Shown: positions 2,316-42,800 of the stretch, piece after piece | Layout of the letters: every line of letters starts with the position of its first letter | How positions within the stretch are numbered: the first letter of the stretch is position 1 | From: Merdibacter massiliensis | GTDB lineage: Bacteria > Bacillota_I > Bacilli_A > Erysipelotrichales > Erysipelotrichaceae | Assembly: GCF_900155395.1 (NCBI RefSeq) | Contig: NZ_LT699726.1 | Coordinates: 62,001-126,000 of the forward strand | Length of the DNA stretch: 64,000 bases | Direction: 5' to 3' | Translations under genes and position numbers: made by a program | Notes under the pieces: generated by a model | Told to the model about the DNA's origin: nothing | The model's database searches: none | The model's input: only the letters and a program-made list of their open reading frames with translations

Positions 2316-4124
2316 TTAATAGGCCGGGGTGCCGTACCCGTAAATCTCATAGTACCCAATGGGGTAGCTGTTCTGACGCACAGAATCGCCAGAGTTGCCT
2401 TCTACGGTGTAGACACGTCCATTCTCTACTTTCTCCACAATGCCCACATGGTCAGATTGCCCGTCTTGGCCTCCATCATCCCAGTCAAAAAAGATGATGT
2501 CGCCGGGGCGCGGCTCATAGCTGTTATCCTGCCATAGCCCACGCTCCTGAAACCAGGGAACGCCCTGGGACGCACAGGCCGCAAACATCGGGATAACGCC
2601 GGCTTCAATATAGCCGCATTGGTCAGCACACCAGCTCACAAAACAAGCGCACCATTCCACACGGCTACTAAAACCATACCAGCTCCAGTACGGTTCGCCG
2701 CCGATGTTCCCCACCTGGGAGAGCGCCACCGTGACGATTTCTCCATCTCCTCCGGTAATGCCGTAGAGCACCTGGGACCAAAGGGAATTGTTCTCGTCGG
2801 CCAGCAGCTCCGCCATCTGTTCCCGCTGGTCCTCGTTAAAGCCGAACTGGTCTGCCATTTCCTCGGCGGTCTTATGGCTGACGGTGATATACAGATAGGT
2901 GCGGGTGACGGTTACTTCCGTTTCCACGATATTGCCGTTACCATCATCGGATGTTTCAATCACTGTTTCCGTCTGGGTGGACGTACTGGATGAAATCTCA
3001 TTCATCTGCCAAAAGATGTCCTTCAAAAGCTCCAGCTTCTCATCATCCATGGTGGCCACTTCCTGGGCGTTGTCCGGGTCGGTGGTGGTTTTGACAGCAT
3101 AAACCGCCAGAACCTCTTTCCACACAGCGCGGGAACCGGACATCTCCAGCACATCATAGCTGTGGGACGCCTTGATCTCATCCAGATTCTCCTGGTAATC
3201 CGTATTGATCTCCTGTACGGCAGTCTGCATGGTCTGCCCGGTGCCGGAATCCTCGCCGGAAAAGAAAATACCAAAACAGGAGCCGATAATCATACCGATG
3301 AGGCAGATCACAATAATCACCAGCACAGCAATCCAACCGCCAGCGGCGATGGCCGCAATCAGCGCCTTGGTCGCCGCAATGATGGCTTTCACCGCCGCAA
3401 CCGTAGCCTTAACTGCCGCCTTTGCCGCAACCACCGCAGTCCGGGCCGCTATGCGGGCAGCGTGAGCCGCAGCCCTGGCAGCCCGCGCCGTGGCCTGGGC
3501 AGTGTGCTGGGCGGCTTTGGCCGCCTGCTGACTGGTCTTGATACTGGCCTTGGCAGTCTTTTCCGCCGTTTTGATGGATTTAGTAGTGGTTTTCACCGTC
3601 CCCTTGGCAGTGGAAGAAGCCTGCTTGATGGTCTTGCGGCTCCTGTCCACTGTCTTAATGCCTTTCTTGCTGCGGTCCAAAGTCTTGATGGCCCCGCGCT
3701 CCTGACGGACCGCCTTGGCTGGCTCGGAAACCGTATCCGCCGCCTGACGCCCGCTCCAGCGTGTGGTAGGCTGTCCAGCCTGCCGAGCCGCCTGTTTCTC
3801 CGCTTGTTTTTTCGGCTGTTCGGCTGCGGCTTTCCGCTTTTGGATTTTCTCCTTAACCTTGGAGATGTTCTCCCTGGTTGTCTGAACCCCCTTGCGGCCC
3901 TGTTTATCAAACTGGTGGAACGCTTCATGGGTGACGTTATCCACCCCAGCGGAAAGGCGGTCGGACGCATACTCGCCAGGGGAACTTTCCTCGGCATACA
4001 TCCCATGCTCGGCCTTATCCTTGGTGCGGATATACGCCTCCTTCATCCGTTCAGAAGCAACCGCCGCTTTATCAATCGCTTTAATGCCTTTTTCGGCCAC
4101 TCTTGTTTTAATGCCCTTGCCCAT
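2316..4124 (-). CDS. Conjugation peptidoglycan hydrolase, CD1108 family, CHAP domain
   Basis: A protein of about 602 residues that would open the cell wall for the mating channel. The first 260 residues are charged and alanine-rich with long helical, coiled-coil-like stretches. One membrane segment lies near residues 262-289. The last 145 residues form a CHAP-type cysteine peptidase or amidase domain with the nucleophile region WCACFVSW (about 489-496), a conserved His in SDHVGIVE (near 559) and a downstream EGNSGD. The start chosen is ATG at 4124, eight bases after AAGGAGG; an in-frame GTG lies three codons upstream. It is the last intact gene of the transfer operon, just after the sortase. 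Mobile-element proteins of this kind are known from C. difficile CTn4-like ICEs. Confidence 0.88.
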
Positions 4125-4157
4125 GGGCTTCACCTCCTTCCCTGGGCGGGGCCGCCC

Positions 4158-4946
4158 TTATTCCTCCAGCAGCTTGGCCACAACCACCATCCGCCCGTTG
4201 GTCCGGGAATACTCGCAGGTGGAAAGGGTGATGAGCTGGTCGCCATATTCCGCACTCACGCCCGTGTCATAAAGGGCCAGTTCCTTGCACCCCTCGATAA
4301 ACTCGTCAAAATCTTCTTCCTGCTCGGCTCGGACGAAATGGTAATACTTAAAGCCAGATTCCGAGTAGGCCACCGTCTTAAAGGCGGCAACCACTTCATA
4401 TTCGCCAAAGCTGTCCAGAGTATCAAAGCGGATGGTCTTGTGTTCCTGGTAGAAATCCTCGCTCTCATACTTGCACAAATCTGAGAACATACTGCCGTTG
4501 TTCATGTGATGGCCGTACAGCACCAGATTGTCGGAAATGCCGATGTCGCAGTTTTCCTGCATATAAGGCACCCCATAGCTGCTGTACGACTTATCAAAGG
4601 CGTGCTTCAGATAGAAGTTGGGGCTATCCTTGGTCTGCATGACAGGGTAATCAATCCGGGTGCCGGGAATGGAAATCCAGCCCACCAGGTCGCTGTTCTG
4701 GGCGTACACATCCGCATATTTCTCAAAGGCCGTGAGTTCTTTCGGCTCCTGGGCCGGGTCATCGGCCAGCTCCAGCGTGGGCAGCTCCACATCTTCCTTG
4801 ACCAGCTCGGCCACCTCATCAAAGGCTTCGGCGCTTTGCTTCTGGTCCAGGTATTCCCGGCAGAGCATAGCCCCGGAGAAAAGGAAAAGGGCGGCACAAA
4901 AGGCCGCCCCCGCGATCATCAGTCTGTTTTTAACTTTGTCACTCAT
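4158..4946 (-). CDS. Class B sortase
   Basis: A 262-residue membrane-anchored transpeptidase with an N-terminal membrane segment (about 10-28) and a sortase fold. His146 (in YGHHMN), Cys244 (in LSTCEY) and Arg252 (in RTNGRM) form the expected catalytic triad, and the spacing fits class B. It probably attaches an ICE-encoded surface protein to the wall. The obvious candidate is the adhesin at 31,792-36,021, which ends in a TPKTG signal. Start codon with CAGGAGG upstream. It sits between the CHAP hydrolase and an uncharacterised coiled-coil protein in the transfer operon. Confidence 0.9.
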   Translation of the reverse strand: MSDKVKNRLMIAGAAFCAALFLFSGAMLCREYLDQKQSAEAFDEVAELVKEDVELPTLELADDPAQEPKELTAFEKYADVYAQNSDLVGWISIPGTRIDYPVMQTKDSPNFYLKHAFDKSYSSYGVPYMQENCDIGISDNLVLYGHHMNNGSMFSDLCKYESEDFYQEHKTIRFDTLDSFGEYEVVAAFKTVAYSESGFKYYHFVRAEQEEDFDEFIEGCKELALYDTGVSAEYGDQLITLSTCEYSRTNGRMVVVAKLLEE

Positions 4947-5743: not shown

Positions 5744-6148
5744 TCATCGCTCCGGTTCCGCCTGCTTTTTTGCAGGGGGCAGCTCCCGGCAGTATTCCGG
5801 GTAACGGATTTTCACGCCCTCCATAAAGTAAGGTGCAAACTCGCAGCAGAACAAATCCTCCGGGGAATAGGCGTTGCTGTGCTCCGGGTCGGTGTAGCCG
5901 TTCCAGAGATTGAAAGCAAGGCGGCACACCCGGACGGTGCCGCTGGTCTGCCAGCCGCCGTGCATACCATCCGGTTCAATGCAATCCTGCTTGAAATCAA
6001 ACATCTGGCGGATGTTGGCCCGCGTTTCCGGGGCAATCCCCATCACATAGAAAAAGGCCCGGTGGTAACAGTCGTTCCGCCGCGCCTTGCTCATCATATC
6101 CAAAAAGAAATCCCGGTGTTCCGGGGACGCAAAACGGATATTGCTCAT
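5744..6148 (-). CDS. DUF6075 family ICE protein
   Basis: A 134-residue soluble protein with a conserved-looking N-terminus (FASPEHRDFFLDMM) and many aromatic residues. It overlaps the end of virB4 by four bases (ATGA) with GAGGAGG upstream, so it is translationally coupled to the transfer ATPase. Proteins of this family are found in the same position in many gut Bacillota ICEs. No function is established. A possible role is regulating or accompanying the transfer apparatus. Confidence 0.75.
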   Translation of the reverse strand: MSNIRFASPEHRDFFLDMMSKARRNDCYHRAFFYVMGIAPETRANIRQMFDFKQDCIEPDGMHGGWQTSGTVRVCRLAFNLWNGYTDPEHSNAYSPEDLFCCEFAPYFMEGVKIRYPEYCRELPPAKKQAEPER

Positions 6149-13939: not shown

Positions 13940-15376
13940 TCATCTCCTTCCTGGGGGAGCCGCCCGGCCCTGCTCCGGCTCCTGGCGGGCTTTCTCATCC
14001 CTGCCGGAGACTTCCTCACGGGCGGCCTGTATCTTATCCTTGATGGAAGTGGAGCGCAGGGCAATATCCCCGCACAGCTTCACCTCCCGGCGCAGCTCCT
14101 TGATCTGCGCAGATAGTTTGGAGATCTCAGCCCGGATATGCTCCTGCCTGGCAGGGTCGGCCAGCACTGCCTTGGTGCGAAGTTTCCGGTACAGGCTTTT
14201 CCGCTGTTCCGTCAGGCCGGCAAGCTGAGATTCCACATCGGACCGATAGGCGTTAAGCTGCTCCAGGGTGTCAATGCGGTGGCGGGAGAGAAGGCGGGCT
14301 TCGTCGGTAAGCTCCTGCGCCCGGATCAAATCTTCCCGCAGTGTATGAGGCACCCGCCTGGGCGGGCGGTTCTGCTTTTGGGGGAATACCCCCAGCAGAT
14401 AGCAGTAGTGGAAGTAGAGGGCGCGGAACCCCGTCACCTTTTTAGCCTGTTTCAAATCCCCGTGGAGCCTGCACCGCAGCGGCTCCGGCCTGTGTTCCCG
14501 CTGGGGGCGGCGCTGGGCTAAAATCCGCCTGCGGATGTTCTCCATCGAGTAGTCCTCGCCAAAGTTACGCATGAGCTTGCGTCCACGGGGGTAATTCGGC
14601 GGGCGGACCGTAATATCCTTGCCCACCTTGACGTCATAGCCCATCTGCCGCAGATGATAAAAAAACTGCCGTTCCGTCATAGACTGACGGATGGCAGTAT
14701 CCACATCGGCTTTGATAAGGGAGAGATAGGTGGGGCGGCCTTCCTGCTCGGCCCGCCATTCCCCGTAGTGCTTGGATTTTCCCCGCTGGGGGTTCTCAAT
14801 GACGGAAAGCCCATACTCCCGGCACAGCCGGTCGGATTCCCGCTGCATATCGAAATAATCCTGCTCGGTACGATGGTACTTGATGCCGTCCACGAAGGAA
14901 ACCGTGTTCACTACAAAATGATTGTGCAGATGATTTTCCCTGTCCAGATGGGTAGCCACCAGCACCTGGTATTTTTCACCCCACAGCTTTTTTGCCAGGG
15001 CAAGGCCGATCTCATGGGCCAGCTCCGGCGTGGCCTCGCCGGGGGCAAAGCTCTGATAGCCGTGGTAGGCCACAGTCCCGTCCTCCTTTCCGAAACGCTT
15101 TTTTACCGCTATCATCTCATCGCGGGCAGTAGAGGGGCTGCAATTCACCCCGGAAACAAACTGCCGCATGACCGTTTCGCCTTCGCTTTCCACCGCCTTG
15201 CCTGTTTTTTGCTGTTGGACGGCATATTCGATCACATCGGATAGGCCCTGGGCCTCCTTGCCATCCATATCCTGCTTTTCAAAGAAATCAGGATTTTCGG
15301 TCTTATCTGGATTCTCGATATAGATGAGGACCTTGCCCAGCCAGCCGTTCACCCGCCAGATAGACGTGGTAGCCAC
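13940..15376 (-). CDS. Relaxase/mobilisation nuclease (MobA/VirD2 type)
   Basis: The relaxase nicks oriT and pilots the strand. The histidine cluster is at His143, His149, His151 and His153 (THLDRENHLHNHF), the metal-binding signature of this family. A helical C-terminal part follows. I place the start at GTG 15,376 (VATTSIWRVNGWLGK), one base after the stop of the upstream mobC-like gene, because relatives begin at this sequence. The frame extends upstream to 15,454, but that part is antisense-like junk overlapping mobC. The result is 478 residues. The catalytic tyrosine was not assigned with confidence. Confidence 0.9.
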   Translation of the reverse strand: MATTSIWRVNGWLGKVLIYIENPDKTENPDFFEKQDMDGKEAQGLSDVIEYAVQQQKTGKAVESEGETVMRQFVSGVNCSPSTARDEMIAVKKRFGKEDGTVAYHGYQSFAPGEATPELAHEIGLALAKKLWGEKYQVLVATHLDRENHLHNHFVVNTVSFVDGIKYHRTEQDYFDMQRESDRLCREYGLSVIENPQRGKSKHYGEWRAEQEGRPTYLSLIKADVDTAIRQSMTERQFFYHLRQMGYDVKVGKDITVRPPNYPRGRKLMRNFGEDYSMENIRRRILAQRRPQREHRPEPLRCRLHGDLKQAKKVTGFRALYFHYCYLLGVFPQKQNRPPRRVPHTLREDLIRAQELTDEARLLSRHRIDTLEQLNAYRSDVESQLAGLTEQRKSLYRKLRTKAVLADPARQEHIRAEISKLSAQIKELRREVKLCGDIALRSTSIKDKIQAAREEVSGRDEKARQEPEQGRAAPPGRR

Positions 15377-15919: not shown

Positions 15920-15947
15920 GAAAACCTCCATCCTTTCAAAAGGGGTA

Positions 15948-16038
15948 TTAGGGGGCGTTCCCCCTAACAAGCGGCCTTTGTGGTATCACAAAGGCGATGC
16001 TTGCTGGTACAGCTACATTCCATTCCCCTGCGGGGAAT
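15948..16038. repeat. Cluster of three hairpins, candidate origin of transfer
   Basis: Three perfect inverted repeats lie in 91 bp of non-coding DNA: TTAGGGGG/CCCCCTAA (15,948-15,967, loop of 4), GCCTTTGTG/CACAAAGGC (15,974-15,995, loop of 4) and ATTCCCC/GGGGAAT (16,022-16,038, loop of 3). They are immediately upstream of the small membrane gene, mobC and relaxase, the usual place for oriT. No known nick-site consensus was recognised, so oriT is an inference from structure and position. Confidence 0.5.
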
Positions 16039-16060: not shown

Positions 16061-16252
16061 TCACCGCTCGCCCCGGTCACGGGAATACCGCTTGGCATGG
16101 AACTCCACGCCGGTAAAATGGTTTGCGTCCAGAACAACCTCACCGCGTTTCCATTGGTCCCTGGCAAACTGCTCGGCCTCCTCCCGGCTGTTTGCCGCCA
16201 CCTTCATTTTCACCTCCAGCGTTTCCCGGATGGTAACATCATAATGGTTCAT
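16061..16252 (-). CDS. DpnD/PcfM family protein
   Basis: A 63-residue protein of the DpnD/PcfM type: a short strand-rich start (YDVTIRETLEVKMKVAANSREEA) followed by a helix and an acidic end. The start chosen (MNHYDV) overlaps the stop of the primase gene by ATGA and has AAAGGAG upstream. Eighteen more in-frame upstream codons belong to primase sequence. Such proteins recur near conjugation genes. Their role is unknown, though the fold suggests a small protein- or nucleic-acid-binding module. Confidence 0.8.
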   Translation of the reverse strand: MNHYDVTIRETLEVKMKVAANSREEAEQFARDQWKRGEVVLDANHFTGVEFHAKRYSRDRGER

Positions 16253-17220
16253 CGCTCGTACTCCTTTCCCTGGCTGCCCCGAATGGGAATCCCCAGCCGG
16301 TGGCACAGAAAATCGTTCACATCCTTTCCACGGGGCGGTGGTTTGTTCTCCACCCGGTAACCCTCCGGCATGACAGCCATGATCGCTTTGGCCGCCAGCC
16401 GGCCAGCCGTGTCGTTATCCAAATGGAGATAGACGGTTTTCACATGGGGGCGGTCCTCCAAAAATCGGGTGAGGGCCACCGGCAGCTTGCTTTCCTCGAT
16501 CTTTTTCTTCGGCTGGTACACCCCGGCCAGGGACAACAGATTGTGCCGCCGCCAGTCGATCCCGTCCAGCTTGCAGAGCGTAGCGTAGGACATCACATCA
16601 ATAGCGCACTCGCACAGATGGACCGCCGGATTTTCTACGCAGGCGGGCAGGGCAAAGGAAAAGTGCTTATCACTGCCGCTTAAATCCCCGTGGAACCGGG
16701 CTTCACTGATTCCCCGCAGGCAGCCGAACCGCGCCTTGCCATCTTTATCAAAGCCCACAAAAACCACGTTGCTGTGTCCCTTGTTCCGGCTCTCATAAAT
16801 CCGCCCGGTCTGAACACAGTAGTCCAAAATCTCCTGGTCAATGCCCCTTCCCTTGAGATAGTCCATCATCGCCTGATTGTCCGGGGCAGCCTGGGGCAGA
16901 AGCAAGTGCTTGGGCTTTTCCCCTTTCGGCGCTGGCACAAAGGAAGGCGGCGGGATGGCCGCCCTGCCGGAGATGGTTTCCATGGCCTCCAGAAAGGAAT
17001 AGCCATTGACCTTGATGAGATAGTCCAGAGCACTGTAACCGCCGATCCCACGGGAAAACCAGCACCATTTGCCGTTAGAGATACGCAGGCTGTCATGGGT
17101 CTTGGTGCAGTAGACGTTGCCGGATACATGAACCAACTCCTGGGGTTCGCAGGTTTGCAGGTAGGTGAGTAGGTCCACCCGCCTTGCCTGTTCGATGGCT
17201 TCTGAATCGTAAAAAGGCAT
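16249..17220 (-). CDS. Primase-like protein (DUF3991 with Toprim domain)
   Basis: A 323-residue protein. The N-terminus has a CHC2/DUF3991-type zinc-finger-like region (residues 20-80), and the C-terminal half carries a Toprim-like core (TVYLHLDNDTAGRLAAKAI, about 260-280) with acidic metal-binding residues. It would synthesise primers on transferred single strands or help ICE replication. It is the first gene of the transfer operon. Its ATG directly follows a seven-T tract of a long hairpin and has no ordinary ribosome-binding site. A possible AAAGGGGG lies in the hairpin stem, 12 bases away. No better in-frame Met is nearby. Confidence 0.82.
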   Translation of the reverse strand: MPFYDSEAIEQARRVDLLTYLQTCEPQELVHVSGNVYCTKTHDSLRISNGKWCWFSRGIGGYSALDYLIKVNGYSFLEAMETISGRAAIPPPSFVPAPKGEKPKHLLLPQAAPDNQAMMDYLKGRGIDQEILDYCVQTGRIYESRNKGHSNVVFVGFDKDGKARFGCLRGISEARFHGDLSGSDKHFSFALPACVENPAVHLCECAIDVMSYATLCKLDGIDWRRHNLLSLAGVYQPKKKIEESKLPVALTRFLEDRPHVKTVYLHLDNDTAGRLAAKAIMAVMPEGYRVENKPPPRGKDVNDFLCHRLGIPIRGSQGKEYER

Positions 17221-17225
17221 AAAAA

Positions 17226-17300
17226 AATACAGCCCCCTTTACATAGCCGTAGATTAGCCGCCCCATGTGGGGTAGCTGGCTATGTAAAGGGGGCTATATT
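17226..17300 (-). terminator. Long terminator/attenuator-like hairpin abutting the primase ATG
   Basis: The arms 17,226-17,248 and 17,278-17,300 pair over 23 bp with a single mismatch (18 bp perfect). The 29-base loop contains an inner CCCC-ATGT-GGGG hairpin. On the minus strand the stem is followed by GTA and seven T, then by the primase ATG. This is the form of an intrinsic terminator, placed as an attenuator. The only plausible ribosome-binding sequence is inside the 3' arm. Confidence 0.75.
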
Positions 17301-17312
17301 CGTTTCAGTATG

Positions 17313-17343
17313 TAAAAAACGGTGCAGATCGCTCCGCACCGTT
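17313..17343 (-). terminator. Intrinsic terminator after the 110-residue gene
   Basis: An 8-bp perfect stem AACGGTGC/GCACCGTT (17,318-17,325 and 17,336-17,343) is followed on the minus strand by six T. It lies just after the stop at 17,352. A strong, simple terminator. Confidence 0.85.
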
Positions 17344-17351
17344 TCATAGGG

Positions 17352-17684
17352 CTATTCAGTTTTGAAAGCGCCGATTTTCTTCAGATAAGCAAACCCGTCT
17401 GCATGGCCCCGAAAGTAGATGTGTTCCCGTTCCATATTATCGGTACGCATATACAGCCGGATAAATTCCTTCAAGGCTTCATGCTCCTCCGCAGTAAAGG
17501 AAAGTTCTCCCTTGCCCTCCAGCAGAGCGCCAATCGCAGGATTTCGGCGTTTCAGTTCTTCCATCTGGGCCTTCAACTCGGTATATTCCGGGCTGGCAGC
17601 CGCCAAATCCATCACAATGTCGCTGCCGATTTCAGAAAACTGCTCGGAAATGCGCTCCGGGAGCAGGCAGTAGCTATCGTCCAT
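17352..17684 (-). CDS. Conserved ICE protein of unknown function, 110 residues
   Basis: A soluble, acidic, mostly helical protein (MDDSYCLLPERISEQFSEIG at the start). I recall similar proteins from other gut ICEs but cannot assign a firm family. It is monocistronic: a promoter carrying the repeated 13-base motif lies upstream (17,717-17,755) and an intrinsic terminator directly downstream. AAGGGGTGAT precedes the ATG. Its position between the helicase block and the transfer operon, with its own promoter and terminator, would suit a regulator, but no DNA-binding motif is visible. Confidence 0.7.
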   Translation of the reverse strand: MDDSYCLLPERISEQFSEIGSDIVMDLAAASPEYTELKAQMEELKRRNPAIGALLEGKGELSFTAEEHEALKEFIRLYMRTDNMEREHIYFRGHADGFAYLKKIGAFKTE

Positions 17685-17716: not shown

Positions 17717-17755
17717 ACTATACTTGCCCCGCAGCGCAATGGCAAATGTGCGATT
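17717..17755 (-). promoter_or_regulatory. Promoter A with the repeated 13-base motif
   Basis: The minus strand carries AATCGCACATTTG (17,743-17,755), whose end overlaps -35 TTGCCA (17,740-17,745). The -10 box TATAGT is 17 bases on (17,717-17,722). A second TATAAT follows. It drives the 110-residue gene. The motif begins within the stop codon of the DUF3848 gene. Confidence 0.7.
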
Positions 17756-31791: not shown

Positions 31792-34700
31792 TTATTTTGC
31801 GGTATTATTGCCTTTCTTGCGCTTGCCCACATAAGCCGCAACGCCCAGGGCGGCAGCGCCCATAGCGGATACACCCATCAGGGCCGCCCACAGCCAGGGC
31901 TTGCTGTCATCGCCGGTTTTCGGGGTATCGCGCAGTTCGTTGTGCATTTGCGCCACGGTAGTTTTGTCTGCGAGAATCGTCACCTTTTTATCCGCAGGCA
32001 GCACATAGTTGGCGCTGGCCCCATCCGACACCTCAGACACGGTGTAATCGCCTACGCGCAGGCCCTCGATGAAGATTTCACCGTTTTTATCCGTTTTGAA
32101 GGTCTGGTCGTAGCCGTTGGCCCCGGTCACGCGGAAGGAGAAGCCCTCCACCTTGCCATCGCTGGATGTCTTTTCAATCCGCAGGGAACCTGTCTGGGCC
32201 ATGTTGGTGAAGCCAATCCCGGCCTCGTTCTCTACCTCGTAAATCTTGCCGTTCTCGGTGATCTCCACATAGTAGGCGTTTTCATCCAGCAGGAAGCCCT
32301 CCGGTGCTTTGGTTTCCTTTACGAACACGCCGCCGTAGAGGATGTGGGCCATCTCGTAAATGCCGGTGCTGGTTTCCTCCAGCTTGCCCAGCAGCTCGTC
32401 ACCCTCGTCCAGTTCTTTGTTGCCGTTGGTGTCGCGGTATACCTCGAACTCGGCCCCGGTGAGCTTGTTGTCGGGATAATCCTTATCCACCTTCGTCAAA
32501 CGCAGGTCACCGTACACGCGCTCATTGGCAAGGGAGATTTCCACAACCTGCCCATCTTCCTCCACGGTAACGGGGATCACTTCATCGGAGAGGATGAACC
32601 CTTCCGGGCTTTCCAGCTCTTTCAGCACCCAATTTCCGTAAGGCACACCTGCGAAAGAGAAGCTGCCATCCTCCGCTGAGGTGGCGGTGGCCAGGGCATT
32701 TTCTGCGGTAAACTCGGTTTCGTCGGACTTAAACAGGCCGATGACAGCCCCGCCCAGGCCCGTGCCGTTTTCGTCAGTTTTGAGGCCCTTGATTTCGCCG
32801 CGGATCAGCTCGTTGGTGACAGCCTCGCCATCATTGGCGGAAATCTCTACCACAGCAATGGAAGGCCCGCCGTACTCAAAGGTGAACGGGAAGGTTTCGC
32901 CGTTCAGCAGATAATGACTGTCGGTGGACAGCTCTTTCAGGTAGAAGCTGCCGAAAGGCAGGTCGGTGCTGCAAATGGCCTGGCCGTTCTCATTCACAGA
33001 AACGATTTCCAGAAGCCCATCTGCAGGAATCACGGAACCATCCGCTGCGGTGATGTCCTCCTGGGCATAGAGGCCAAAGGTCACGGCGGAGATTTCTCCA
33101 TTCATGCCAATGCCAAAGGTTTCATCCTGCTCCAGCACCTTGTCAAGCGTCACAAGGGCTTTTTGGCGCAGGTTGTAGAAGCTGGCAGAGGTTTCGGTGA
33201 CTTCCACCTCCTGGCCTGCGTACACCAGCTCCACGTTGGTGACGTTCTCGCCGGTATCCACCATGCCGTGAGGGAACTGGATTTCCTTCACCTGGAACTT
33301 GCCCAGGTAGAGGGGCTGGCTCTGGGCCGTCCCGTCCTCGCCGGTGGTGATGGTGTCCACTACCTCGCCCGCAGAATAGCGCAGGGTGCCGTCCAGGGTG
33401 TAGACGTCCTCCAGGGCGGTGATTTCAAACACCGCACCGGGCAGGCCCTGCACCTCATACACCGGCTGGTAAACGCCTTCGCTTTCTGCCACAGAGGAGA
33501 ACACCTCGCCGGTCTTGCTGACTTTGATGATTCCTTTCTGGGCCATGTTGGGCTTGGTGACTTCGATCACCGTCACGCCGCCTTCTTCGCTGGAATTGTC
33601 CTCGGTCACATCAAAGTAAACCGGGGTGCTGTCCAGTACATAGCCGTAGGGGGCCTGGACTTCAACGAGGGAATATCCCGTGCCGTATTCCAGCTTTTCA
33701 GGCGTTACCAGATAGCCCTCGGAATTGGTGTAGAACGTATCAATCGTGGTGGGCGTCGGATAGGTGAAGGTCATTTCCACCTTGCTGCCATCCGGGCGGT
33801 AAATCTGGAACCCGGCCCCCGCATAGGGAATGGTGACGCCGGTTTCCGCGTCCACCTTGACCACCTTGATGAAGCTCTCAAAATTGGCGTTGTTGATGAG
33901 GTAACGGTAGGTCTGGCCGTCCTGGGCGATATACACTTCAAAGTCGTCCATCAGCTCGCGGCCTTCCCAGCCCTTGGTCTGGCGGACGATATAGGTGCCG
34001 TAGGGCAGCTTCTTCGACTGTGCAAAGCCGTTCTCATCGCAGACGAGAACATCGCGCTCGGATTCCTCGGCGTTTTCATAGCTGCCCGCAGCTTTCAAGA
34101 ACACCTGGAACTCCGCGCCGGATTCCGGGGTTTCGATCTGGGTTTCCCCGTCGTCGGTATGCTTGATGATGGCAATGTCGCCTTTGATGATCTGCTCCGT
34201 CACGTCGTTGGCGGTGTCGTTCAGCTCAATGGTATAAAGCTCCGGCTCCGCGCCCACCTTGTGGATGGTGGAATCCAGCAGGTAGCCCTCGCTGGGGCTG
34301 ATTTCACGGATTGTCCAGTCCGAATCGCAGACGTAATATCCAGTGGTGAACTGGCCGTTTTCGTCCGTGGTAAAGCTGTCAATGAGGGTATCTCCCTTAT
34401 ACAGCCCATACACAGCGCCGGCCAGGGAACCGTCGCCCTGGGGCGCACCCGTTTCCACATCGCTCTTGGTGACGGTGACGCGGAACTTCTTCAGCACGTT
34501 GTTCACACTCTTATGGGTAACTTCATTCCACTCGATGGTGGCTGTCTGGGAATCCGGCACCACATAACGGATGGGGGTATCCACCTCCTCCAGTACATAG
34601 CCCGTGCCGATGAGCACGTTTTCAAAACGCGCCACACCGTTTCCGTCCGTCACAGCATACTCATCCACCGGCTGCCCGGAGAGGGATGTGCCGTACAAGT

Positions 34701-36021
34701 GGAAGGTCATGCCCTCCACCAGCCCGTCCTCGCTGGTTTTCGTCACTTCCAGGCTGCCGCGCTTCAGCTTGTTGTTGAAATTCACGGTAGCAGTCTGGCC
34801 GCTGACGATGGTCACGCGCTGGGTTTCCTGGGGTTCGTACTTATCAATCGACTGCTCGGTTACGGTATAAACGCCGGGATTGAGGTCGGAGATGTCGATC
34901 TCGCCCGCCTCATTGGTGGTCTTGGTGGCGCTGTACCCCTCGCCGGTGATGGTGAAGTTGATTCCGGCTACCTGTCCATCCTCGGAAGTCTTGATCAGCT
35001 TCATATTACCGGTTTTCACTTCCAGGTTCAGATAGCCTACCATCTGGTCGGAAACGGTTTCCCCGTAGGTGGCAAAGTCCTGTTTGCCGCCGCCAGTAAT
35101 TCCGTCCGTCCAAACCACAACACCGCTGCGCTGGGCAGTCACTTTTTCCGCCTTAATGGTCACAGAGCCTTTGATGGCCTGGGCGGAAGTAATGGTGAGC
35201 TGATTGCCGTCCACGGAGAAATTCAGGCCGGTGGTGCTGCTTGAGAAGGTGTAGTCGCCCAGCACACCGTTGGTATCCGTGAGGGTGAGGGAATACTGCT
35301 GGCCATCCCATTTCAGCTCATAGGCACCGGCGTCTGCGGTGCTGCTGAAAAAGCTGGGCAGCATGGTGTGGCGCTTGACCGCGCTCTCAATGGCGGAATA
35401 CTGGCTGAAAATCTCGCTGTACAGGGGATGGTCGGCGCTGATATATTCCGTCACGTTGTTTTTGCCCTGGGCATTGGCGTCCACATGGTTAAACTGGCTG
35501 TCGCGCTCACCTACGACGGTTTCCCAAACAAGAAGCTGGGTAGCGATATATCCCGCGATCTTGCTGGCGTCCTCCGGGTTTCCACTCATCCATGAGGTGC
35601 TGGCGTTGCCCTGCCAGCCATAAGTCATAATCCGCCCGATATATTCCTTGATGGTATCCGGCGGGATGGTGGGGTTCAGGTTGGACGGGTAGTTATCCCA
35701 GAAATCTTCGCCCCGGCCCGTATACTGGTCGCCGGTATTCACACCGACGCCCGGCTCAATGCAGTAGATGGCTCTGCCATTAAAGGCGTCCTGGGTGTGG
35801 ACGGAAAAGCTGTCGTTCTCTCCGGTGGACCAGCCGCCCAGGAAATTCAGGGCAGAATGGCCCCATCCGGCTTTGTTGGGATCATTGGCACGGGGCAGGT
35901 CGATCATATACGTCGTCATGTTTTCGCCTGCGGCAAAAGCCGTAGTTCCTGTCCCTACGAACACGCCCAGGCACATGAGCAGGGCCATGAACAGGGACAG
36001 AGGCTTTCTCAATGCTTTCAT
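31792..36021 (-). CDS. Giant thioester/Cna-B cell-wall adhesin with LPXTG-like anchor
   Basis: A 1,409-residue surface protein. The signal peptide is MKALRKPLSLFMALLMCLGV onward, cut near TTAFAA. An N-terminal thioester domain follows, with Cys87 (AIYCIEPG) and Gln162 (IATQLLVWE) as the likely thioester pair. About ten Cna-B/SpaA-type repeats come next, often of the form G.L.V.K.....G...G..F, ending with E-containing strands that suggest isopeptide bonds. The C-terminus has TPKTG, a hydrophobic span and a basic tail. It probably binds recipient cells or host surfaces during mating. AAGGAGG precedes the ATG. The ICE's own class B sortase may anchor it. Confidence 0.92.
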   Translation of the reverse strand: MKALRKPLSLFMALLMCLGVFVGTGTTAFAAGENMTTYMIDLPRANDPNKAGWGHSALNFLGGWSTGENDSFSVHTQDAFNGRAIYCIEPGVGVNTGDQYTGRGEDFWDNYPSNLNPTIPPDTIKEYIGRIMTYGWQGNASTSWMSGNPEDASKIAGYIATQLLVWETVVGERDSQFNHVDANAQGKNNVTEYISADHPLYSEIFSQYSAIESAVKRHTMLPSFFSSTADAGAYELKWDGQQYSLTLTDTNGVLGDYTFSSSTTGLNFSVDGNQLTITSAQAIKGSVTIKAEKVTAQRSGVVVWTDGITGGGKQDFATYGETVSDQMVGYLNLEVKTGNMKLIKTSEDGQVAGINFTITGEGYSATKTTNEAGEIDISDLNPGVYTVTEQSIDKYEPQETQRVTIVSGQTATVNFNNKLKRGSLEVTKTSEDGLVEGMTFHLYGTSLSGQPVDEYAVTDGNGVARFENVLIGTGYVLEEVDTPIRYVVPDSQTATIEWNEVTHKSVNNVLKKFRVTVTKSDVETGAPQGDGSLAGAVYGLYKGDTLIDSFTTDENGQFTTGYYVCDSDWTIREISPSEGYLLDSTIHKVGAEPELYTIELNDTANDVTEQIIKGDIAIIKHTDDGETQIETPESGAEFQVFLKAAGSYENAEESERDVLVCDENGFAQSKKLPYGTYIVRQTKGWEGRELMDDFEVYIAQDGQTYRYLINNANFESFIKVVKVDAETGVTIPYAGAGFQIYRPDGSKVEMTFTYPTPTTIDTFYTNSEGYLVTPEKLEYGTGYSLVEVQAPYGYVLDSTPVYFDVTEDNSSEEGGVTVIEVTKPNMAQKGIIKVSKTGEVFSSVAESEGVYQPVYEVQGLPGAVFEITALEDVYTLDGTLRYSAGEVVDTITTGEDGTAQSQPLYLGKFQVKEIQFPHGMVDTGENVTNVELVYAGQEVEVTETSASFYNLRQKALVTLDKVLEQDETFGIGMNGEISAVTFGLYAQEDITAADGSVIPADGLLEIVSVNENGQAICSTDLPFGSFYLKELSTDSHYLLNGETFPFTFEYGGPSIAVVEISANDGEAVTNELIRGEIKGLKTDENGTGLGGAVIGLFKSDETEFTAENALATATSAEDGSFSFAGVPYGNWVLKELESPEGFILSDEVIPVTVEEDGQVVEISLANERVYGDLRLTKVDKDYPDNKLTGAEFEVYRDTNGNKELDEGDELLGKLEETSTGIYEMAHILYGGVFVKETKAPEGFLLDENAYYVEITENGKIYEVENEAGIGFTNMAQTGSLRIEKTSSDGKVEGFSFRVTGANGYDQTFKTDKNGEIFIEGLRVGDYTVSEVSDGASANYVLPADKKVTILADKTTVAQMHNELRDTPKTGDDSKPWLWAALMGVSAMGAAALGVAAYVGKRKKGNNTAK

Positions 36022-36046
36022 CGTGTTACCTCCTTGAAATGGCCGC

Positions 36047-36074
36047 AAAAAAAGCACATCGCTCTGGATGTGCT
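36047..36074 (-). terminator. Intrinsic terminator in front of the adhesin gene
   Basis: An 8-bp stem AGCACATC/GATGTGCT (loop of 6) is followed on the minus strand by seven T, ending 25 bases before the adhesin start. It either ends the parAB transcript or acts as a leader attenuator of the adhesin. The 36,075-36,299 stretch has no gene; a weak TAGAAT -10 but no matching -35 was seen. Confidence 0.75.
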
Positions 36075-36299: not shown

Positions 36300-37274
36300 C
36301 TATCTCTCTAAACTGCGCTGGCGCTTGCGGTAGAGTTCCAGCGCCTTAACAATGGTGTCCTCGATCTTCTGCGTGGGCGTCCCCGGCGCAAAAAACCGGC
36401 TGATTTTTTCTTTTGGGATTTTGAACTGTTCTTTTTGATTGGGCTTTTCCTCCTTCATAATGGAAACAAGGGCGTCTTTGGCCAGCCGTTCCCCTCCAGT
36501 CTTGGCTTCGGACATCTGGCGCATTTTGATGGCCTGGGCGTGGGATGGGGTGCAGTCCATCTCGTCCATGATAGCGAACAAGTCGGCCTGTTCTTCTTTT
36601 CGCAGGTAGGACAGCTCCACCGCTGGGCGCATGGCAATCTGAAGCATTTCCTGGTCTTTAAGCACCGAGTTATCTACCAGCTCCAGAATTTCCGGGATAA
36701 GGTGGGTAAGGCGGATATACCGTTGAATCTGTGTTTTGCTGTCCGGGCTTTCTGCGGCTAATTCCTGGTTGGAACGTGTCCCGATTAAATTCGGCCCCAC
36801 TGGGGCCGAATTATCTTTCCTTGGTCGGCCAGCCTGCCTTTTCATAGCGTCCAGCTTCATCTTGTAGGCAAACGCCTTCTCCGAGGGCAAAATCTGCTCA
36901 CGCTGCAAGTTGGAGTCCACCATGATGATCGTTGCTTCATCGTCGGTGAGGTTTCGCACAATACAGGGGATTTCCGCAAGCCCCGCCAAATCCGCAGCCT
37001 TTTTCCTGCGGTGTCCGGCGACCATCTCATAGCCGCCCTCCGGCTTGGGGCGCACCAGGGCGGGGACCAAAACGCCGTACTGCTTCACACTTTCCGTCAT
37101 TTCCTGCATGGCTGTGTCCATGCGAACCTTAAAGGGGTGATTCGGGAAGTCGCTGATTTCCGAGGGCGAAAGATTGACAACTTTTTCAAGCCGTGCCTCG
37201 GCCCGTTCTTCCTCCGTGGAAAACAGGTCATCGACTGAGGGAAGATTGAAGTTTAGCCCGCTGCTTTTCGCCAT
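36300..37274 (-). CDS. parB: ParB/Spo0J-family partition protein
   Basis: A 324-residue ParB-like protein. The N-terminal ParB nuclease-like/CTPase fold contains GHRRKKAA, and the central helix-turn-helix region (about 165-215) would bind parS-like sites. The C-terminal region is basic and helical. It partners with ParA, whose gene overlaps its start by 47 bases. AGGAGG is nine bases before the ATG. In ICEs the pair stabilises the circular form and can also support transfer. I saw no obvious parS sequence nearby. Confidence 0.9.
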   Translation of the reverse strand: MAKSSGLNFNLPSVDDLFSTEEERAEARLEKVVNLSPSEISDFPNHPFKVRMDTAMQEMTESVKQYGVLVPALVRPKPEGGYEMVAGHRRKKAADLAGLAEIPCIVRNLTDDEATIIMVDSNLQREQILPSEKAFAYKMKLDAMKRQAGRPRKDNSAPVGPNLIGTRSNQELAAESPDSKTQIQRYIRLTHLIPEILELVDNSVLKDQEMLQIAMRPAVELSYLRKEEQADLFAIMDEMDCTPSHAQAIKMRQMSEAKTGGERLAKDALVSIMKEEKPNQKEQFKIPKEKISRFFAPGTPTQKIEDTIVKALELYRKRQRSLER

Positions 37275-38076
37275 CCGCCAGCACCTCCTTTGAAAAATCC
37301 GCGTAAGCCTGGGCCACCTTGCTCCCCTTGTCGTAGGCGTAAATGCTCTTGCCTGCGGCGCTGATTTCTGCGGCTTTGATGGCTACGGGAATTTCGGAAC
37401 GATAGATTTTCAACACGCTCCCGTAACTCTGCCGCAGTGTATCCGCTGTCTGTCTGGCAAGGTTTGTGCGCCCATCCACCAGAGTGAGCAGCACCCCGTC
37501 CACCTTCAGAGCCGGGTTGATCTGCCGTTTCACTTTATTGATGGTTTTCATAAGCTGGGTCATGCCTTTGGCGGGGAGATAGTGAGCCTGCACCGGGATA
37601 ATCACGCTGTCCGCCGCAGCCAGGGCGTTAATCGTAATCATGCCCAGGGACGGCATACAGTCAATGAGAACCACGTCATAGTGCTTCTTGGCTTCATTCA
37701 CATAGGTCCGCAGAGTAAACTCCCGGCTCATGGCGTTGACCAGGCTCATTTCCAGTGCAGACAGCTCAATGTTGGCGGGCATAAGGTCTACGCCCTCGCT
37801 GTGGTGCAAAATGCCCTCATCCGTGGTGAATGGCTCATCCCGGATCACTTTTTCCATGACGGTGGCAAGGGTGGTGGGAAGGCTGTCTTGGTTTTGCCAG
37901 CCCAGGCAGGTGGTGAGGTCGCCTTGGGGGTCTGCGTCAATGAGCAGCACCTTTTTCCCCAGGCGGGCTAAACCAATGCCCAGGTTCACCGTCGTGGTGG
38001 TTTTGCCTGTGCCGCCTTTCTGGTTGGCCAGCGCGATCACGCGGCCATTCCTGGGGCGGCTTCTTTGTTCCGGCAT
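37228..38076 (-). CDS. parA: ParA-family partition ATPase
   Basis: About 282 residues with the deviant Walker A KGGTGKTT near the N-terminus, then LLIDADPQGD and the switch region VVLIDCMPSLG. It drives segregation of the circular ICE with ParB. The chosen ATG at 38,076 lies eight bases after AAGGAGG; another ATG two codons upstream is too close to that site. The long frame up to 38,205 is leader and terminator sequence. A hairpin with a mismatch (38,103-38,129) lies in the 5' leader. Confidence 0.9.
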   Translation of the reverse strand: MPEQRSRPRNGRVIALANQKGGTGKTTTTVNLGIGLARLGKKVLLIDADPQGDLTTCLGWQNQDSLPTTLATVMEKVIRDEPFTTDEGILHHSEGVDLMPANIELSALEMSLVNAMSREFTLRTYVNEAKKHYDVVLIDCMPSLGMITINALAAADSVIIPVQAHYLPAKGMTQLMKTINKVKRQINPALKVDGVLLTLVDGRTNLARQTADTLRQSYGSVLKIYRSEIPVAIKAAEISAAGKSIYAYDKGSKVAQAYADFSKEVLADGEKQRAKLQSSLSR

Positions 38077-38160
38077 TTTCATGTCCTCCTTCTTCTTAGA
38101 TTTAGCCGCCCGTTGGCAAGACGGACGGCTATGTATGCGGGAATCTGAAAGATGGACATG

Positions 38161-38199
38161 AAAAAAGCCGCTTACTCTTGCTGAAAAGAATAAGCGGCT
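38161..38199 (-). terminator. Intrinsic terminator after the 54-residue gene
   Basis: Stem AGCCGCTTA/TAAGCGGCT with extra pairing inside, followed by six T on the minus strand. It ends the short transcript from promoter B before parA. Confidence 0.8.
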
Positions 38200-38221
38200 C
38201 ATCAAGCAGCGATATGTAATT

Positions 38222-39183: not shown

Positions 39184-40092
39184 CTATAGGTAGGATTCTC
39201 TGTATTTCATAGGAGGCATACCTTTTAATTTCTTTTGTGGTCTTTGATGATTATAGAAGTAGATATAATCATCAACTTTCTTAATAAGATCATCAAAGGT
39301 ATTTGGGATATTGTTATTAAGTTCTAAGCATTCAGATTTAAGATGAGAAAAGAAATTTTCACAACAGGCATTATCATAACAATTCGCTTTTCTTGAATGT
39401 GATATTGTAACTCCATAACTATCAAGATATTTGATATATATGATATTTGTATACTGGAAACCTTGATCGCTATGGATGATGCATTCAATTGTTGGATTCC
39501 ATATCTTATCATTGATGATCTCTTTTATATTGTTCATAACGATATTCATATCGTTAAATTTAGATATTTTATATGCTAAAATAGAATTGTCATAAAGATC
39601 TTTAATAACGGAAATATACATACGACCTTTTTGACAATAGATATAGCTTACGTCAGTAACTAACTTTTCTAAAGGACGTGAAGCTTTAAAGTTTCTAGCG
39701 AGGACATTATCACAAACTGTTCTTGCTTTTTTGTCTTTTTCTTGAATCGTACAGCATTTAAACTTTTTCTTCCTGATAGGTGAGGATAAACCTAATATCT
39801 TCATATAACGATAAACAGTCTTTTCATTATAAATGACACCAGTATCTAAAGCTATTTTCATTGTTATATAACGATATCCTTTATAAGATTCATAAAATAT
39901 CATTTCTATCTGATCGGCTAAGAAATCATCAAATGAATACCTTATAGGCCTGCCTATATTTAACCAACGATAATATCCACTACTTGATACTTTAAGATAA
40001 TTACATAATCTTCTAACTGGATATTTATCTTTTAAATCATAAACTATCGAATATCTTAGTGCTCTCCGTATATTTTGCGGAGAGCCTTCGCT
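39184..40092 (-). CDS. IS3-family OrfB transposase, made by frameshift
   Basis: About 302 residues in the -1 frame relative to orfA. It has the DDE integrase core: Asp in VTDVSYI, Asp in HSDQGFQ and Glu in ENFFSHLKSE, with the usual IS3 C-terminus (YIYFYNHQRPQKKLKGMPP). The frame is open from the slippery run at 40,092-40,098. Translation as an OrfAB fusion is expected. An internal ATG at 39,903 would lack the N-terminal DNA-binding part. It seems intact, so the element may be active. Confidence 0.88.
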   Translation of the reverse strand, partial: SEGSPQNIRRALRYSIVYDLKDKYPVRRLCNYLKVSSSGYYRWLNIGRPIRYSFDDFLADQIEMIFYESYKGYRYITMKIALDTGVIYNEKTVYRYMKILGLSSPIRKKKFKCCTIQEKDKKARTVCDNVLARNFKASRPLEKLVTDVSYIYCQKGRMYISVIKDLYDNSILAYKISKFNDMNIVMNNIKEIINDKIWNPTIECIIHSDQGFQYTNIIYIKYLDSYGVTISHSRKANCYDNACCENFFSHLKSECLELNNNIPNTFDDLIKKVDDYIYFYNHQRPQKKLKGMPPMKYRESYL

Positions 40093-40403
40093 TTTTTTAA
40101 TATTTCGTTCTCCATCTTAAGATATTCTAGCTGTTCATCTTTGGTCATATAATCAAGATTTATTTTCTTAGATCTACCTTTATATACTCCATCTTTTTTA
40201 CCTAAGCGTCTGCCATCATCTTTAAGTAATTCTGGATTTTGTTTATATAGTCTTATCCAATTTCTTAAGGTTCTATTATCTTTGATACCATATATTTTGC
40301 ATATGCTGCGTAATCCACCATATTCATCACTTAGATAATCTTCTACTGCTTTAGTTTTTAACTCTGGAGTATATTTATTAAATTTTGTACTCTTTTTAGC
40401 CAT
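40056..40403 (-). CDS. IS3-family OrfA
   Basis: A 115-residue protein with a helix-turn-helix (about residues 10-55, ELKTKAVEDYLSDEYGGLRS) and a C-terminal leucine-zipper-like helix. It binds the IS ends and regulates OrfAB production. The ATG lacks a strong Shine-Dalgarno sequence beyond AAAGGGGC. It terminates just after the frameshift hairpin. Confidence 0.88.
   Translation of the reverse strand: MAKKSTKFNKYTPELKTKAVEDYLSDEYGGLRSICKIYGIKDNRTLRNWIRLYKQNPELLKDDGRRLGKKDGVYKGRSKKINLDYMTKDEQLEYLKMENEILKKAKALRKIYGEH
40061..40098 (-). promoter_or_regulatory. Programmed -1 frameshift signal of the IS
   Basis: On the minus strand orfA reads TTA AAA AAA G, a run of seven A suited to -1 slippage. 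Six bases later there is a perfect 8-bp hairpin GCTCTCCG/CGGAGAGC. The orfB frame is exactly -1 and continues through this spot. This is the standard way IS3 elements make OrfAB. Confidence 0.85.
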
Positions 40404-42575: not shown

Positions 42576-42800
42576 ATAAAAAAGCCCACGCCAAAGGGCG
42601 AGAGCTTCGCGGTACCACCTTTTTCATGTATGTCATCATACACCTTCAACCGTTAACGCCGGTGTTACGTTTCTTTCTAACCCATTCAAAAGAACGGCTC
42701 CAGAGCCATCTTCCCACTTGCTTTTCGTCAGATTTTCACCAGCCATCTGCTCTCTATGCGATCCGCAACGGTACTCTTTCCTTCACTGCTTTTACAGTCA
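42576..42800 (-). promoter_or_regulatory. T-box leader of metG, with extended -10 promoter
   Basis: The minus-strand leader contains the T-box GGTGGTACCGCG (42,608-42,619), then a stem with CTCGCCC and GTGGGC followed by six T (terminator, about 42,579-42,605). Upstream parts match stem I, with AGAGAG and GGTGAAAA. A TTGAATGGG context supplies ATG as the likely specifier, fitting Met. An extended -10 (TGCTATACT, with TATACT at 42,803-42,808) lies at the 5' end. Uncharged tRNA-Met would allow read-through into metG. Confidence 0.9.

Follow-up and report, generated by a model that had tools for sequence, protein, structure and literature searches.

A two-tier RNA hairpin abutting the primase gene of a CD1110-family conjugative element as a candidate cis-acting control element

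Attenuators of the BglG/SacY type work through a protein-bound RNA hairpin that excludes an overlapping terminator. In long operons of mobile elements, several other ways of dealing with terminators have been described. The pLS20 conjugation operon contains more than 20 internal terminators, which are passed by conAn-mediated processive antitermination (PMC8955417). Tn916 has three terminators (T1–T3), one of which lies within a coding frame; getting past them takes antitermination encoded by the element itself, through canT, a region of 452 bp (PMC11658703). LoaP, a NusG paralog of Gram-positive bacteria, combines a leader hairpin with antitermination in long operons (PMC12691694).

The window, that is, the whole stretch of 64,000 nucleotides of Merdibacter massiliensis DNA analysed here, contains an element that encodes a CD1110-family VirB4, a CD1115-family VirD4, a MobA/VirD2-type relaxase and a NikA-like protein, as well as ParA/ParB and an SNF2/methylase protein of 3209 aa; the minus strand carries all of these genes. 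This gene content identifies it as a conjugative element of the Tn1549/C. difficile CTn-like group. Pieces of an IS3-like transposase (39184-40403) adjoin its HTH-ParA end, and a large adhesin with a thioester (TED) and ten SpaA-type domains is encoded within it (31792-36057, minus strand). An oriT-like stretch, consisting of GCTTGTTAGGGGGAACGCCCCCTAATACCCC and a hairpin, precedes the NikA-like gene (15935-16010, minus strand). The features that bear on the primase locus are the following.

17717-17745, minus strand: promoter-like sequence TTGCCA-17-TATAGT ahead of the DUF6664 gene, from a consensus scan
17352-17684, minus strand: DUF6664 gene, 110 aa, upstream of T1 (Pfam PF20369, E 1.8e-12)
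17314-17344, minus strand: T1, an ordinary intrinsic terminator (AAACGGTGCGGAGCGATCTGCACCGTTT and a U-tract); relatives have other stem sequences in the same place
17221-17301, minus strand: HP2, a two-tier hairpin with U7 that abuts the primase ATG
17278-17298, minus strand: outer 5′ arm of HP2; CCCCCUUUACAUAGCC comprises the anti-SD and the conserved box UUUACAUAG[C/U]C
17256-17277, minus strand: inner hairpin of HP2, AGCUACCCC/GGGGCGGCU
17228-17248, minus strand: outer 3′ arm of HP2, carrying the candidate Shine–Dalgarno (SD) sequence AAAGGGGG
16249-17220, minus strand: primase-like gene, 323 aa, DUF3991 and Toprim (Pfam)
14665-14698, minus strand: strong hairpin within the relaxase frame, terminator-like and followed by a long U-tract
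36053-36074, minus strand: terminator-like hairpin directly before the adhesin gene

Read along the minus strand, the DUF6664 gene is followed by T1, a spacer of 13 nt (17313-17301), HP2 and the primase ATG (17220-17218), which comes directly after the U7 of HP2 (17227-17221). HP2 lies in the middle of the element, between the SNF2–DUF3848–DUF6664 genes and the primase–NikA–relaxase–T4SS genes. The same strand carries the ParA/ParB, adhesin and SNF2/methylase genes of the element upstream of HP2, which is best regarded as an internal checkpoint; a place at the entry to the transfer operon, as the initial annotation had it, is not supported. Terminator-like hairpins occur on the coding strand at 38165-38200, 36053-36074, 17317-17344, HP2, 14665-14698 and 6054-6088; the one inside the relaxase frame is a candidate for one more internal terminator of the operon.

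Both T1 and HP2 have the layout of an intrinsic terminator, a stable hairpin that runs straight into a U-rich tract: about -18 kcal/mol with U6 for T1 (hairpin 17344-17317, U-tract 17319-17314) and -53 kcal/mol with U7 for HP2. The two terminator-like hairpins first annotated here, the second ending at the primase ATG, are thus indeed present, the outer stem of HP2 (arms 17298-17278 and 17248-17228) measuring 21 bp, or 23 bp with the flanking A–U pairs. The region folds at -69.2 kcal/mol as against -39.8 kcal/mol for shuffled sequences (z = -7.8), none of 200 shuffles being as stable. The core of HP2 reads UUUACAUAGYC, inner hairpin (loop ACAU), CUAAUCUA. The sole SD candidate of the primase gene, AAAGGGGG (17240-17233), lies inside the 3′ arm, again as annotated, and its predicted mean unpaired probability in the full leader is below 0.001. 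In predicted folding of the growing transcript, the inner hairpin appears before the outer stem and at that stage leaves the box unpaired. An Rfam 15 search of the window at the gathering threshold gave no family over HP2; its only match was a T-box leader outside the conjugative element (42591-42795, minus strand, 112 bits).

The nearest candidate promoter on the minus strand is the one upstream of the DUF6664 gene (17745-17717), from a consensus scan in which sigma-70-like sites of the region were no more numerous than in shuffles. The absence of a promoter between T1 and the primase ATG, asserted in the initial annotation, was borne out by the same scan, which found no sigma-70-like site there; a sigma-70 promoter within or just before HP2 was rejected on this ground. 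Two terminator-like hairpins, no promoter between them and an SD inside the second stem together suggest that expression of the genes beyond needs read-through plus RNA rearrangement. To this extent the proposal that the transfer genes are reached only by read-through, antitermination or rearrangement probably holds, although antitermination at terminators had already been described.

HP2 is not a chance structure, for it recurs before the same primase gene in 15 relatives from several genera of Clostridia, namely 13 genome contigs (L003-L015), a Subdoligranulum record (L019) and an IMG/VR contig (L036); the leader of L005 is identical to that of L004, and that of L015 to that of L013. The primase proteins that it precedes share 82-98% identity, and the UUUACAUAG box, AAGGGGG and U5-U7-AUG are conserved. 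Such conservation argues for a function. In one relative, the metagenome assembly L011, the outer stem has been lost while AAAGGGGG is kept with a spacer of 6 nt to the ATG, which speaks for AAAGGGGG being the SD. All these relatives have a terminator ahead of HP2, with differing stem sequences, the pattern expected from selection for a terminator. L019 has a putative lipoprotein cargo gene, equipped with its own terminator, between the DUF6664 terminator and HP2; HP2 has therefore stayed with the primase gene. The cargo gene (3400-4410) also has a promoter-like site. At primase genes that are more distantly related (L081-L083), the SD is an ordinary one and an HP2-like hairpin is absent; in one of these sister elements, L082, an SNF2 gene and a small gene are followed directly by the primase gene. 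HP2 itself is rare: a DNA search of 395 genomes of the class brought up no copy besides that of the window. Pattern scans of viral contigs gave mostly unrelated coding matches. A MITE or transposon end was rejected, HP2 being present in a single copy in the genome apart from its own inverted arm.

The compensatory changes that the initial annotation had proposed to look for in related elements are nearly absent from HP2: one of 25 pairs has changed on both sides (C–G to U–A in the inner hairpin of L036), the others varying mostly on one side through G–U. Among the variant pair types of the outer stem, five are G–U in the sense RNA and one is A–C, which lends weak support to the sense RNA as the folded form. 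Strong covariation was found instead in the inner stem of a wider family of leader elements, of which the window contains a second copy before the ParA-like gene.

38165-38200, minus strand: terminator upstream of the ParA leader
38084-38140, minus strand: second copy of the leader element, UACAUAGCC–stem–GGCUAAAUCUA–SD of ParA, conserved in relatives
37228-38076, minus strand: ParA-like gene

The order of the leader element is box UUUACAUAG[C/U]C, inner hairpin, linker like AAUCUAUG and SD. In the window the ParA leader reads TACATAGCC-GTCCGTCTTGCCAACGGGC-GGCTAAATCTA-AGAAG-AAGGAGG, soon after a terminator, with CUUGCCA as its loop; the core pattern would be expected 0.01 times per window. The same order, with different stem sequences, is seen in the ParA leaders both of relatives and of elements further removed. 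A covariance model, R1, built from ten ParA leaders and run on whole records, matched before further ParA genes, DUF3848-like genes (L220, L221), TopB (L226), a RepA-like gene, reached via a small frame (L225, later L232), and, with a weak score, a distant primase gene (L224); the names TopB, RepA-like and DUF3848 (L220/L221) were read from translated sequences alone. A further match from the class scan, L233, was taken as false because it resembles a threonyl-tRNA synthetase leader. Across 18 leader copies, 8 of the 11 inner-stem pairs have changed on both sides, giving 31 cells against 9.9 expected (0 of 500 shuffles) in an alignment fitted to the structure; the first MAFFT alignment gave 17 cells against 6.5, likewise with 0 of 500. 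These stems vary by compensation and their sequence is not conserved, for which reason a DNA operator was rejected. All 17 listed copies other than HP2, which precede five types of gene, have 10-12 nt between hairpin and SD. So constant a spacing points to translation or the ribosome-binding region, and not to termination alone. Copies differ in the distance between box and linker, which rules out the box as a -35 element. An upstream ATG in frame with ParA was also rejected, the frame differing between copies (L139 versus L157).

Rfam 15 has no family over the leader element, either in the window at gathering or at selected loci with E up to 3, and no description of it was found in the open-licence literature. 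A large catalogue of candidate structured RNAs compiled from human microbiomes could include it (PMC8040213). In the sister elements L119-L122, L131, L132 and L135, a strong match to pemK RNA (RF02913) lies upstream of ParA and is a candidate for a control RNA at the start of the operon.

Is HP2 a member of this family? HP2 and the ParA leader share, in order, the box UUUACAUAG[C/U]C, GGGC(G/A)GCUAA, CUAUG and an SD, and HP2 has the signature by which members are recognized, the box plus a hairpin whose end reads GGC(G/A)GCUAA(A)U, ahead of the SD. With ParA itself excluded, it is the best or tied-best match to the ParA leaders within the element, and the sister primase leaders L224 and L080 carry an element-like hairpin in the same position. 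The family covariance model gives the ParA copy 71-75 bits and HP2 about 15 bits (E about 0.1 in 39 kb), with an equal score for the antisense of HP2, as HP2 is palindromic. Given this marginal score, membership rests on shared sequence, order and position. The hairpin-to-SD distance of HP2, 16-17 nt, falls outside the 10-12 nt of the other copies because its linker is extended, as in a derived variant and not a typical member. HP2 is thus likely to be a derived member of the family, the primase copy having been elaborated into an SD-masking terminator.

How does this arrangement compare with the described systems? As in pLS20 (PMC8955417), terminators within a long conjugation operon would have to be passed for the transfer genes to be expressed. 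However, conAn acts once, near the main promoter, whereas HP2 carries the SD of the next gene and the leader element recurs before individual genes. The likeness to Tn916 lies in terminators inside a conjugative element, as with T1 and HP2 here, and T3 of Tn916, located inside orf15, recalls the hairpin inside the relaxase frame; canT, by contrast, acts from one place, and the available part of that report makes no mention of SD masking (PMC11658703). These likenesses are drawn from the published descriptions of conAn and canT. With LoaP the locus shares a small leader RNA hairpin and downstream intrinsic terminators in long operons (PMC12691694). The LoaP hairpin is, however, of the UNCG type, and here the loops vary: UUCG occurs in L117, L180 and L226, but most copies, including HP2 and the ParA copy, have other loops, so that a LoaP-type loop was rejected as a general feature. 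The NusG-family genes of this genome lie outside the element's contig; on contig C23, two 214-aa NusG-family frames with equal scores (L236, L237) are present besides the normal NusG and are possibly specialized elongation factors. CUUUACAUA together with the hairpin may resemble a boxA/boxB arrangement. In proposed logic the locus resembles the BglG/SacY attenuators, where an early hairpin, here with a free box, competes with a later terminator using the same bases; in contrast to them, HP2 has no known protein and no Rfam match, and its box also pairs with the SD region.

We consider it probable, on balance, that HP2 is a cis-acting RNA control hairpin, the primase-leader version of the recurrent element, acting as a terminator, an SD mask and a switch in this CD1110-family element. 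Growth of the linker would have allowed it to pair with the whole box and the preceding sequence and thereby to form the outer stem, which would serve at once as an intrinsic terminator that runs up to the AUG and as a cover for the SD. In the default state, leaking transcripts would be stopped at T1 or HP2, and those that pass would carry a buried SD. In the active state, the first-made inner hairpin would be held with the box left free, no outer stem would form, transcription would continue and the SD would be open. The inner hairpin and box may be held by a bound protein or a modified RNA polymerase, or the same end may be reached through cleavage by a nuclease; this analysis identified no candidate binding factor for HP2 or the leader element.

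Alternatively, T1 and HP2 may be a plain double terminator that insulates against stray transcription and is passed only by polymerase modified through processive antitermination at the operon start, in the manner of conAn or canT, SD masking being a by-product. The several terminator-like hairpins on the coding strand of the element would fit this reading, as would the precedents of pLS20, whose more than 20 internal terminators are passed by conAn (PMC8955417), and of Tn916, whose T1-T3 are passed by canT (PMC11658703). We nevertheless regard it as rather unlikely, since it leaves unexplained why the SD and its complement lie in the stem of nearly all relatives, why the hairpins are doubled within about 20 nt and why other genes too are preceded by the box, at a constant distance to the SD; moreover, Rfam detects no conAn or canT family in the window.

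A near-perfect long stem is also the usual substrate of RNase III-type enzymes. An outer stem of more than 20 bp could be a site for such a double-strand-specific ribonuclease, cleavage freeing the SD and creating a new mRNA 5′ end. This would account for the length of the near-perfect 21-bp stem, but the other family members have short outer stems or none and the U7 at the AUG would not be needed, which makes this explanation improbable. A role as a single-stranded DNA hairpin in transfer (second-strand origin, primase loading site or single-strand promoter), suggested by the position of HP2 beside the primase gene of a conjugative element and about 1.2 kb from the oriT-like region, appears very improbable, because the changes mostly keep G–U pairs of the sense RNA (5 versus 1) and DNA roles do not predict family copies before many genes at a fixed SD distance.

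To return to the control hairpin, the initial annotation had spoken of an undescribed control step of conjugation. This does not apply to internal terminators and antitermination, known from pLS20 and Tn916 (PMC8955417, PMC11658703). The new part would be the masking of the SD and the kinship with a repeated leader element, which had escaped the initial annotation. It is tempting to speculate further, though we hold this to be possible rather than probable, that the elements of the CD1110 family form a post-initiation RNA regulon, in which one trans-acting factor or a modified RNA polymerase would read, in the manner of a nut site, the leader hairpin before ParA, RepA-like, DUF3848, TopB and primase genes and so coordinate the DNA-processing genes, HP2 being the member that acts as terminator and SD lock. 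CD1110-family elements carry genes between gut Clostridia, and little is known of how their transfer is switched on. A leader hairpin common to several DNA-handling genes hints at one shared control over DNA transfer, and would give a single handle on the transfer switch.
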